Assembly (NCBI GenBank): GCA_963978895.1
Contig: OZ022242.1
Coordinates: 4,819,359 to 4,883,358, forward strand
Reading direction: 5' to 3'
Source of the DNA: Erpobdella octoculata
Taxonomy: Eukaryota; Annelida; Clitellata; Hirudinida; Erpobdellidae
Length of the DNA: 64,000 nt
The notes beneath the pieces were generated by a model. It worked only from the letters and a program-made list of their open reading frames with translations, was not told the DNA's origin and did not search any database. Below, piece after piece: positions 46,501 through 55,500 of this stretch; positions within the stretch are counted from its first letter, which is position 1; every line of letters starts with the position of its first letter. The translations under genes were made by a program, and so were the position numbers.

Positions 46501-49500
46501 GCAATATAATTAATAAACAATTGACTATTTGAAATTATTTTCAAATTGTTTTTCATTTGAGTAAAAATTAATTATTTAAAGCATTTAGAAAATTAGAACT
46601 GAAACCACGTCAATGTACATAAGAATTTATTACTTGAAAAATTCAATTCTACTGGTAGCTTCATTTCTCTCCCAAATTTGAGAAAATCCACCAGCTACCA
46701 GAGTTCCCTGAATATCAAAATTATAATATTAAGTAAATGTATAAAATGATTAATTTTAATATAATTTTACTAGAAAAAAGTAATAAATAAAATTTAAAAA
46801 AAATAATTTTGTATAAAACCTTGACGACGACGGCGCACATTCCTGCCAGAAGACACAGACCTTGAAAAACATCTGTCCATATGACAGCTTTCATACCTCC
46901 CTGAATAAATTAAAACTGAAACTATTAGTTTCAATTTTAAGAATCGTTAGCTAAAATTTTTTCTCAATCGTTAAATGCGTTACATTTGATGTTTTTACAA
47001 CTGAAGTTTATAGAAACATCTATTGAGTTAAAGTGAGAGTATCGTGTTCAATGAAGGATACAGATACAATTTTGATCTTAGATCTAAAAAATTTTTATGG
47101 TGGATATTATGGTTAAAAAAATTTATTTCATAGTTAATATTTGAAATATATATTTTGAAACTGTGAATAATTCATAAAGCTTAAACGTTATAAATCGCTA
47201 CTGAGCATATCATGTAACGCTACAAATTAGTAGAGAAAGATATGATAAGACATTTATTTGTATAAAAACAAGTTTGTACACTCGTTCTGTATTAAAGCAT
47301 TTATTCGAAGGCTAGAATTATCTTCCTTACTAAAGTGGTGTAGATGATGGCAACAAGAGACGACAGAATGATGGAGGACCACGTTGGAATGCCTGTAACT
47401 GCTTCTAGAGCCACAGCTGGTGCGTACAAGACGATTCCAAGTTGAATCGTCTGTGATATTTTCGTAAGTTATACCTCAATAAAACATTATTAGCAATAAT
47501 AATAATAATAATAATAATAATAATAATAATAATAATAATAATAATAATAATAATAATAATAATAATAATAATAATAATAATAATAATAATAATAATAATA
47601 ATAATAATAATAATAATAATAATAATAATAATAATAATAATAATAATAATAATAATAATAATAATAATAATAATAATAATAATAATAATAATAATAATAA
47701 TAATAATAATAATAATAATAATAATAATAATAATAATAATAATAATAATAATAATAATAATAATAATAATAATAATAATAATAATAATAATAATAATAAT
47801 AATAATAATAATAATAATAATAATAATAATAATAATAATAATAATAATCATAATAATAATAATAATAATAATAATAATAATAATAATAATAATGATTTCA
47901 GCTTGTACAATTTCGGTCCGATAGGAACGAAGTCGTACCTATCGACCCAATTCCGTTCCTATAGGCCGGTTTTCGTTCCTAGCGGACGTCTTCGTACCTA
48001 TCGATCTTGTGTTAATACGATGCTGTAAGAAATGAGTTCTCTTAGATTAATATTTAACTTATTGTTAAACATAAAAATGTTAACTTAATTATTTGAAACA
48101 ATTTTAACTAGTTAATAAAAAATTAATAATGCAGTATTTCATTAAAAGTAGGAACATTTTTAGTTAAATAGCTTGAGACATTTATCATTTCATTTATTTT
48201 TTTGGAAAATATTAAGTTATTTATTATTTATTATACAAATTTTGGCATAGCTATTTTAAATTTTAGTTGAAAAAAGCCGCCAACTGCAGATGCGGGATTG
48301 CGGTTCTAATATATACAAGTTTGTATTGAGTTAACCTTCGCGCAGAATTTTTCATTTTAATCATGTTCGCCGATGGTTTTTATTCTGGTGAACTTCAAGA
48401 AGTACAGGTGATTTCTTTGTTTTATTATTTGCAAAGTCATGCCTTTTTTTACTCTTAGTCAATCAGTCAACCGTCAACCTAGTGAGACCTAGTCCCTAAT
48501 AAATGTCCTATAGTAATAGTACCTTAATGAGACCTCGTATAATCACTTTAGTAGTCCTAATTGATTAGAATCCTAAGCCGACTGTCAACTTTATAAATAT
48601 TCAATATTATTCTGAGTTTTACCAAAACTCCAGACCCGCTATCGCAATCACAGCCAGCGCACTGTCAATAGCACCGACAAGCAGCGCGGCTTTACACTTA
48701 CAATAAAATCGACAAAGAATAAAAATGCAAGCATAAGTATAAAAATTACGAAATTTATTGACAGTGTTAAAACACTGACTTTCAATAGCCATTTCTTATT
48801 GACAGTGATCTCATTATTAATTATTTAGCCTTCATATGTTTTAATATAAGTAAAAGAGTTAATCGACTGCTCAATTTTAGTTTTAACATTAACAATTTAT
48901 AAGTTTACTTCAAAGACTGATAACAATTGATTTTTTAATTAATTAAAAAAAACTTTCAGGTGCTTCACATTTCCGAAGTTGCCACAGTCTCTTGCTCAGA
49001 AGTTGTGCCTGTGAGTTTTGTTGTATAGAATTTAAGCATCTGCGTCCCGATATCGTTATATCGAAATCAATCGAGATTTCAAAACGATACGGGAGATCCC
49101 GTATCGCCATTGAAACGATACTTATTTCTTATTGACAGTGATCTCATTATTAATTATTTAGCCTTCATATGTTTTGATATAAGTAAAAGAGTTAATCGAC
49201 TGCTCAATTTTACTTTTAACATTAACAATTTATAAGTTTACTTCAAAGACTGATAACAATTGATTTTTTAATTAATTAAAAAAAACTTTCAGGGGCTTCA
49301 CATTTCCGAAGTTGCCACAGTCTCTTGCTCAGAAGTTGTGCCTGTGAGTTTTGTTGTATAGAATTTAAGCATCTGCGTCCCGATATCGTTATATCGAAAT
49401 CAATCGAGATTTCAAAACGATACGGGAGATCCCGTATCGCCATTGAAACGATACATATTTCTTATTGACAGTGATCTCATTATTAATTATTTAGCCTTCG

Positions 49501-52500: not shown

Positions 52501-55500
52501 GGTAGGAGAAAGGAATGGTCCGCGGCCCATACACAGTACATAAAAATGTTATATGCCACATACATAAAAAAAAAACAAGTTCCAACACTTGCTGAAATCA
52601 GACAAAAGTTGAATGAAAAGAGAGATATTTACAAACAGATTTGTGAATCTAGGTTAATAAATAATAAAGACAGAAAAGACAGGGATAAATTAATTTATGC
52701 CATTAGGGCCAAAATAATAAGTAGTTTTAAAAGATAACTTCTATCTTCTGCTGTGTAATGTAAAAAAAAGTAATTCTATCTATCTGTGTAATGTAATGTA
52801 AATTCTGCTGTGTAATGTAAAAAAAAGTAATTCTATCTATCTGTGTAATGTAATGTAAATTCTGCTGAGTAATGTAAAAAAAAGTAATTCTATCTATCTG
52901 TGTAATGTAATGTAAATTCTGCTGTATAATGTAAAAAAAAGTAATTCTATCTATTGTCTGTTGTGTAATGTAAAAAAAGTAATTGTCATCATTATCGTTG
53001 GAACCATCTTGCACCATTGTCATCACTGTTCTCTCTCCATCATCAGAAGAAAGAACAACAATAATATGTACCAATACTTGCATTTACACTTAAATAAGCA
53101 TTTTTAATTTTGTTTTTACTTTTAAATTTGGTCAACAGTAAAAATAACATAAACAAATGACCTAATAAAAATTTTCTTTTAATTTTTCAGTTGAACTTCT
53201 GGGAACAGCTTCATCAGTCATCAGTTATCAGTTTGAAGATTTGACTCTTGGTGATAACACTGTACATTTTTTTAAATGTTGTCCTAGCAGACAATGATAA
53301 TGATGATATTGTACATTTTAGTTTTTTATCTCAAAAAAACAATGGTGATGATACTGTGCAGTCTAGTATTTTCATTTTCTTTCTCTTACACAATGATGAT
53401 GATATTGTGCGTTCCGAATAGACAATTGTGGCGTACAATAGCGCTCGGTCATAAACTGATCGAACCGAAATGTTTTAAGTCCACGACGGAAAACAGTGAA
53501 TGAAGTAGAGGTAGTAAGAGATGCAAGAAGAAAGGAACCAGAGTAAAAAAAAAAGCGTTTAGCAAAAGAGTGCTTAACAGTAAAGATACGAGTGACTACG
53601 AGAGGAAGATCGAAGACCAGACTTAGGAGGGATTTTTATTAAGTTAGTTAGGTAGATTGGAGAAGGGCAATTTTAAACATTAGTAAGCAAATTTTAAATA
53701 TCACCCAATATTTAAGAGGAAGCCAATGAAGAAGAACAAAAGATGAAAAAAATTAGAGGTGCAAGAAACTAAGCGTGCCGCAAGAATTGAAGGCGAATGA
53801 AGGGAAGTGTCAGGGAGACAGTCACAAAGGGAGAGGGCATGTTTTTTTTATTAACCAGGTTATCAACCACATTTATCAAAACCTTTTTTTAAATCATCAA
53901 TTTTCACCGTTACGCATTTTTTATTCACTTGCTTGATGAACCCCTAAATAGGGATATTCAAAATACATCGATTTCACTCAATGTTTGCATATGATTAAAT
54001 CGAAATGATCCGATGTTTTAAAAAGACATTGATATACTCGAAATATTTTCATAAAACATCAAATCAATGGCAACCATAGTGTACCACTTATCCATTGTCT
54101 TCTTTTGAAAATTAAACCTCTTAAACTGGAAGAACCTCTTGCCAAAGAAGTGCAGTCGCTGGTCGTTAATTAAATTAACAATAGAATGGGTGCTATAGAG
54201 AGAATGACTCCTCTCGTTATAGCCACGATATTGGATCCGAGGTTCATAAAAATGCATTTCACTGACCCAAGTGCCTGCTCTTCGGCTGTGGCAAAAGTCA
54301 AAAAACTTATGAAAACTGTAATACAAAATGAGGCTTCGGAATCTGATTTTTTAGATCATCCTGACAGACCAGAAGAAAACTTTTATTTGTGGGATGATCA
54401 CTACAAATGGGTCCACAAGAGCTGGAAAACGGCGAAGCCTGAGAATGCTGTTTATGACGAGCTGTCCATTTACTTGCGCAGTCCAGTAGGAAGACTCAAT
54501 GAGAACCCATTAGAAATTTGGAGTGATCTAAAAATTCAACTCCCTAAATTTCATCCAATTGCGTACAAATACTTGACCATGTTGAGAACTTCAGTACAGT
54601 CTGAACGTTTATTTTCTAAAGCAGCACATGTCGTCAATCAGCAACAAAATAGACTAAAAAGGAAACGTTTAAATAAGCTTTTGATTTTGCACAGTCTTCC
54701 ACAAGAACATTGGATATAGGACTTTGATATATATTTTCACACATTGCTTTTATTTTTATTTTACAACAATTGAACTGAATCAGCAAAAGTTGCGTGAAAA
54801 GTCGTTTTTTTAAACATTTATTCCTTGATAACACACACACACAAGGCAACTTTTGTGAGAGTAATAGATAAGAAAATAATAAAATGTGGTTTGTTTGTGG
54901 AGTGTCAGGGGCGGATTACAGCTTTGTGATGCAATGTTAGAAAAAGTAATCGATTTTGAGAAAACATCAATGTTTTTAACCGATGCATCAAACTACTAAC
55001 TACTACATCGATACACAGGCGCGATGTAATGCATCGACTAAAAACACCCATACCCCTGAACCAAAACCACGGTGAATGTGTTTAAATCAGAGCGTTGATC
55101 AGGTGAATAAAAAAACGCGTAGCGGAGATATCTAATTTAAAAAATTGGTCAGGGTGGTTGATAACGGTCGCTGCTATTGCCCCGGCGGTTAGCCGTGGAA
55201 ATAATCGGTAAAATTGCTAATGAGCCGACAGTCGCGCCGTATGTCTACCTAAAATTAAACCATAACCCTAACCCTATCCCTACCCCTGTAGAAAATATGT
55301 ACATCTTTATCAATTGATCGAAGAATCAATTGTTTTGGCAAAACCGCCGGCTCAGTAGCAATTTTACCGCTTATTGCCCCGGCAAACGACGCCTACTGCC
55401 TTGGTAATAGTTATAGTTATAACGGTTGATAACCTGGTGAATAAAAAAAACACGCCCAGTCACAAATCCGCCCAATCAATCCATCAAGCGCTCTTAAAGA

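Follow-up and report, generated by a model that had tools for sequence, protein, structure and literature searches.

The DIRS and Ngaro retrotransposons integrate by means of a tyrosine recombinase (YR) and carry a reverse transcriptase. Transposons with a YR are proposed, in the available part of the Crypton text (PMC3212892), to move via a circle; the sites on which YRs act typically consist of two inverted arms that enclose a core of 6-8 bp. That part describes animal Cryptons without a C-terminal domain, Crypton YRs with R-H-R-Y and fungal Cryptons ending in short direct repeats, and it describes no exon arrays. Endogenous nimaviruses, according to the accessible sections of PMC10871703, have C2H2-bearing YRs tied to insertion into the simple repeat (TAACC)n, and their 28S rDNA group has multi-exon YR genes. 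Schistosome micro-exon genes, as presented in the accessible part of PMC8293314, are host genes with short, symmetric, skippable exons of at most 36 bp. Here we analyse a locus of the annelid Erpobdella octoculata at which a predicted YR gene with a tandem array of short exons lies within an element of 9,736 bp. The whole stretch analysed, 64,000 nucleotides long (the window), is C5:4819359-4883358 of a 386-Mb genome, and the same genome was searched for copies. The reading that we favour, and consider probable, is that of a 9.7-kb mobile element dwelling in (TAA)n, with a predicted YR gene whose exon-plus-intron array varies in length through unequal recombination.

The element resembles CryptonA and CryptonI in being an animal DNA element in which the YR gene is the sole full-length gene for an integration enzyme. 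It differs from Cryptons in having the catalytic His replaced by Asn (R298, N402, R405, Y438) and in keeping a conserved C-terminal part of ~75 residues, and further in its C2H2 fingers, its length of ~9-10 kb, its tandem exon array and its (TAA)n sites. Because it departs from Cryptons in both R-H-R-Y and the C-terminal domain, the element is, by its predicted protein, a Crypton-like YR transposon and not a Crypton. An inspection by eye of the open reading frames (ORFs) listed for the element, made without a whole-element profile search, brought up none that resembled a reverse transcriptase, and neither the reverse transcriptase nor the RNase H of DIRS/Ngaro was seen there. Compared by description, from the available text, the nimavirus YR belongs to a viral genome of large size, whereas here a single YR gene was seen, together with a fragment of a hAT transposase, in an element of 9.7 kb. 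The exons are symmetric like micro-exons but measure 51, 63, 72, 78 and 81 nt in the window gene and its second family, with only a 30-nt partial exon being shorter; unlike what the accessible text describes for micro-exon genes, near-identical units with exons of 51-81 nt lie in a transposon, and their number varies between copies. An earlier note on this stretch, made from the letters alone, knew of no Crypton or domesticated relative with such an architecture, and among the literature listed, YR transposons with tandem exon arrays were likewise absent.

The predicted recombinase gene and its exon array

The predicted gene lies on the forward strand. In the joined-frame translation it starts with an ATG in a predicted exon 1 of 45 nt (48363..48407; MFADGFYSGELQEVQ), followed by five array exons of 51 nt assigned by splice signals and frame, at 48960..49010 (VLHISEVATVSCSEVVP), 49293..49343 (GLHISEVATVSCSEVVP), 49626..49676, 49959..50009 and 50283..50333; unit comparison indicates that the intron adjoining array exon 4 is 9 bp short and that the unit of array exon 5 is cut to 256 bp. 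A partial array exon of 30 nt (50539..50568; VPVSCSEVVP), a 63-nt exon placed by the joined frame (50727..50789; MLDVTSEELMPPTKAAKKTVP) and a long exon of 1,737 nt (51001..52737) complete the gene, the last encoding two C2H2 zinc fingers, the YR and the conserved C-terminal part according to profile and alignment. All five 51-nt blocks are flanked by identical signals, upstream ...ACTTTCAG and downstream GTGAGT; block 1 begins with Val (GTG), whereas Gly (GGG) opens blocks 2-5. Array units are 96-100% alike, and Tandem Repeats Finder gives the array a period of 333 with 97% matches (score 3311). The five near-identical 333-bp units that had been proposed thus hold as to blocks and coordinates; the spacing from block to block, however, is 333, 333, 333 and 324 bp, the fourth intron being 9 bp shorter, and the array closes with a shortened sixth unit, that of the 30-nt partial exon. 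Coordinates and profile also agree with the proposed position of the array upstream of one long exon for two zinc fingers and a YR.

The array exons have a length that is a multiple of three and equal phases at both ends, so that any number of units preserves the frame, as had been claimed; exon 1, the array exons, the 30-nt, the 63-nt and the long exon join into a single open frame of 709 residues. Splicing and translation of the array exons, and with them the ladder of proteins that the note proposed, are predictions from these features. A SUMO-interaction motif in the array exon was considered and dropped, since copies 2-5 begin with Gly and lose the pattern. About 100 bp of every array intron (unit positions ~66-164; for example 49357..49455) are a dispersed repeat, found in at least 34 further places at 92-100% identity, which has travelled as a passenger inside the amplified unit. 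Among the candidates scored (40 of 1192), 333-bp units at full length occurred only in four copies of the element, and C1:22194586 contains part of the array intron at 89% identity. That the array might be an unrelated satellite, the outcome that would have undone the earlier claim, is thus unsupported by the candidates scored, only the ~100 bp of intron being dispersed.

The two C2H2 fingers were read by eye at residues 5-24 and 54-72 of the long exon. Its assignment to the tyrosine recombinases is based on a match to PF00589 (E=3e-4), which a relative (L001) matches above the Pfam cut-off, on an invariant Y438, and on a weak match of a four-member YR profile to XerA in the PDB (E=0.011). The predicted catalytic residues (51892..52314, forward strand; R298, K328, N402, R405, H429 and Y438 of the long exon) come from an alignment of four relatives, with positions that we assign to the YR motif; R298, K328, R405, H429 and Y438 are invariant in the four, and the ~75 residues C-terminal to the YR domain are conserved in them. 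Recombinase activity is predicted on these grounds. A PDB search with the single window protein found no recombinase, and homologue searches in a protein set and in viral contigs, collections that hold no reference Crypton proteins, gave no match. The single-sequence AlphaFold model of the window protein had a pLDDT of 35.5 and was not used.

Mobility, insertion sites and array length

A genome search with the long exon yielded at least 79 matches, a lower bound as 75 of 265 candidates were scored, many of them older or broken relatives. Close copies lie on C10, C8 and C3, with 100%, 99% and 99% amino-acid identity to the window long exon, respectively. The copies on C5, C10, C8 and C3 have common ends, which place the complete element at 47894..57629 of the window (forward strand); the lengths are 9,736 bp for the window copy and 10,079, 9,419 and 9,671 bp for those on C10, C8 and C3. 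Beyond the shared ends no same-strand alignment longer than 150 bp was found among the four copies. As close copies on four chromosomes share their ends and have unrelated flanks, the window gene is by this comparison part of a mobile and not of a host element, a question that the earlier note had left open, and the element has evidently been active recently.

(TAA)n lies directly outside both ends in all four close copies. In the window, the repeat finder and the end comparison place an (AAT)n microsatellite, the predicted insertion target, at the 5' end (47495..47893) and (ATA)n at the 3' end (57630..57800). In a genome-wide search that allowed up to 3 mismatches, seven 3' ends of this family (family 1) were found, and all seven adjoin exact ATAATAATA. 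It is unlikely that the ends seeded the microsatellites after insertion, given that copies 1-2 substitutions apart have (TAA)n at either end, and that the 5' flank of the C8 copy appears to resemble the end of a LINE reverse-transcriptase ORF. Set side by side, the ends read CTGAAGTT-ATAAT-GATTTCAG in family 1 and GTAGGATT-ATAAT-GATTCTAC in a second family described below; the arms differ, the ATAAT core is identical, and (TAA)n supplies the core. The element would move through a circle, which the zinc-finger recombinase would join to (TAA)n within the short ATAAT core common to element ends and target, with imperfect inverted arms around it. Motifs that recur a short way inward of the 5' ends could be recombinase-binding sites; they read CGTACCTATCGA in family 1 (47894-47990; by eye) and TGCCTTGAGACGCCG in family 2.

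The number of full array exons is 5 in the window copy, 6 in C10, 4 in C8 and 6 in C3. One array exon of C3 carries a base change, and downstream of the C3 array a stub of 9 nt is joined in frame to the long exon. L036, a deleted relative on C6 that has diverged further, holds a single array unit, in two pieces, and in another relative of family 1 (L011) no array unit was found. The counts cover five loci, with C4:12275595 and two 3' ends on C7 left out; the copies at C5:355-359 kb sit in a rearranged cluster, their units uncounted. The earlier interpretation, an N-terminus extended by tandem amplification of a symmetric exon, is borne out by these unit numbers and as a whole appears partly supported; it did not extend to the insertion sites in (TAA)n, to the length of 9.7 kb or to the two other YR families that have arrays of their own.

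Outside the array and the first intron (7,607 bp), the window copy differs from C10 by 1 substitution and from C8 by 2, with 2 gap runs for each pair, and the YR exon shows zero substitutions in both comparisons. At the variable columns, window unit 1 agrees with C10 unit 1 (column 2) and, from column 208 onward, with C10 unit 2; window units 2 and 3 have their equals in C10 units 3 and 4, and window unit 4 differs from C10 unit 5 by a 9-bp deletion and one base. Since window unit 1 corresponds to a junction of C10 units 1 and 2, we infer that one unit was lost by unequal recombination between units, or gained in the reverse direction. Arrays would grow and shrink by this route.

The second YR family in the same genome has 46% identity to the window YR. 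Its unit is 168 bp long, with an 81-nt exon and introns of 86-87 bp, and is present 10, 10, 11 and 6 times in four copies of the family. Outside the array, the copy C1 differs from C7a by 0 substitutions in ~7.0 kb, from C7b by 13 in ~5.0 kb and from C2 by 58 in ~7.1 kb. All 37 exon copies are stop-free and measure 72, 78 or 81 nt; the 10 distinct exons are all open in the frame used, which occurred in none of 5000 shuffles. Among the listed loci the unit occurs ~1 to 11 times, most commonly about twice, in deleted derivatives (at least 122 matches; 40 of 56 candidates scored). Many of these derivatives are near-identical (L050, L051 and similar), keeping the first exons and the fingers and lacking most of the recombinase. 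In C1, C7a and C2, family 2 has (TAA)n at each end; C7b has it at the 5' end, and so has the only deleted derivative that was examined there. Exon 2 of family 2, which begins VVHLAS, is single and by eye stands in the position of the repeated VLHISE exon of family 1, with which it is likely homologous; because it is single, family 2 would have amplified a different exon.

Within the array of one family-2 copy (C1, L012+L043) the introns differ by 0.065, synonymous sites by 0.26 and nonsynonymous sites by 0.157, the unit pairs being from one copy and not independent. Between the YR exons of families 1 and 2, pN is 0.35 and pS, which is close to saturation, 0.73; these values fit purifying selection over the long term. 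The pairs window/C3 (13 nonsynonymous and 3 synonymous changes in the YR exon) and family-2 C1/C2 (5 and 1) carry no apparent purifying signal, as expected for copies that are decaying. A third family (L001/L003, L004) has a 153-bp unit, in two copies and one fused to the long exon, and its 3' ends adjoin (TTA)n; a third member (L027) holds only the fused copy and unit remnants.

Other features of the element and the window

Within the element, a 57-bp tandem repeat detected by Tandem Repeats Finder lies beyond the stop codon (52746..52974, forward strand), and the stretch common to the four copies contains a C-terminal fragment of a hAT transposase (54186..54719, forward strand; PF05699, E=2.5e-12), which recurs in the deleted C6 relative L036. 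A 41-bp tandem repeat, each unit of which carries TTTCAG and GTGTAAG, follows the YR stop in family-2 copies C1 and C7a (L012, L013) and also in L016 and L017, with ~15-16 copies, and is long in L022 too (~33 copies). In the genome at large, COX1 is readable with the invertebrate mitochondrial code. Elsewhere in the window, dense tandem arrays (187-bp, 156/157-bp, (TA)n and (CTGA)n) fill 31637-39026, some apparently in opposite orientation on the two sides. On the reverse strand, a stretch at 22753-23166 matches tetratricopeptide repeat protein 21 in the manner of an exon (PF25060, E=5e-8), and an ORF of 276 residues at 63036-63866 has no Pfam match at 0.01; the latter appears to resemble the GIY-YIG end of Penelope-like elements.

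Explanations for the array

The array exons could be spliced and translated and their number nevertheless be a tolerated by-product of unequal recombination that leaves the recombinase unaffected. We regard this as rather unlikely. Symmetric exons make every unit number safe for the frame, and the span of ~1 to 11 units in family 2, where most listed loci are deleted derivatives with about two, would suit such a by-product; it accords less well with arrays that in three families are built from different exons and with the pN below pS in the family-2 array exons, even if those pairs are not independent. It is improbable that the 51-nt and 81-nt blocks are noncoding, serving as recombinase-binding, promoter or splicing-decoy repeats while translation starts elsewhere. 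Within the family-2 unit conservation is highest in the introns, and the long exon contains its own ATG at 51055, but a start there loses most of finger 1, splice signals and frame are retained in every unit, family-2 exon lengths shift only by threes (78, 72, 81) next to introns of 86-87 bp, and the frame used is open in all distinct family-2 exons far beyond the shuffled expectation.

That the gene is a recombinase domesticated by the host, with one exon amplified, is very improbable: the long open frame of the window copy might speak for it, but the close copies with shared ends and unrelated flanks contradict it. We give as little credence to the differences in unit number being assembly errors: units that are so alike might be miscounted, but the copies have unit variants of their own (the 9-bp deletion of the window, the first unit of C10), and family-2 arrays of distinguishable units likewise differ by whole units.

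The favoured reading, a mobile element with a length-variable exon array, has several observations to contend with. Its YR matches PF00589 below the Pfam cut-off, Asn (N402) replaces the usual catalytic His before R405 in all four aligned relatives, and at a threshold of 0.01 Pfam gives no match to the family-2 protein. Some copies are not intact: the C3 long exon is without the first finger, and the C8 YR exon has a 1-nt gap. The inverted arms are only modestly better than those of shuffled ends (p 0.043 and 0.021), and no microsatellite was seen at the 5' ends of family 3. Two diverged relatives (L015, L019) had no exon array in the ~1.4 kb fetched upstream. Of the 10 distinct family-2 exons, 9 are also open in one of the remaining frames and 4 in the other, and family-2 introns vary less than synonymous sites of the exons, which is unexplained.

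With any unit number in frame, the length of the repeated N-terminal tail would be particular to the recombinase that each intact copy encodes, and unequal exchange between symmetric exons would alter the tail length only. The arrays of three families, together with the pN below pS in the array exons of one family-2 copy, appear to speak for constraint on this tail. That the tail tunes the recombinase is less certain; two further YR families with N-terminal arrays of different sequence suggest it. As a tentative extension, the array may act as a fast length dial: the number of N-terminal modules would change faster than point mutations arise, a burst of copies would bear graded tails, and different families would use different exons.

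Elsewhere, tandem exon duplication has mostly been inferred from old events. Here, copies 1-2 substitutions apart in 7.6 kb differ by whole exon units, so that exon gain and loss may be read event by event, and exon arrays in three YR families would make the benefit of a length-variable tail to a transposon recombinase testable. The element also extends the set of animal YR transposons by one with apparent specificity for (TAA)n, where insertion is likely to be cheap for the host.

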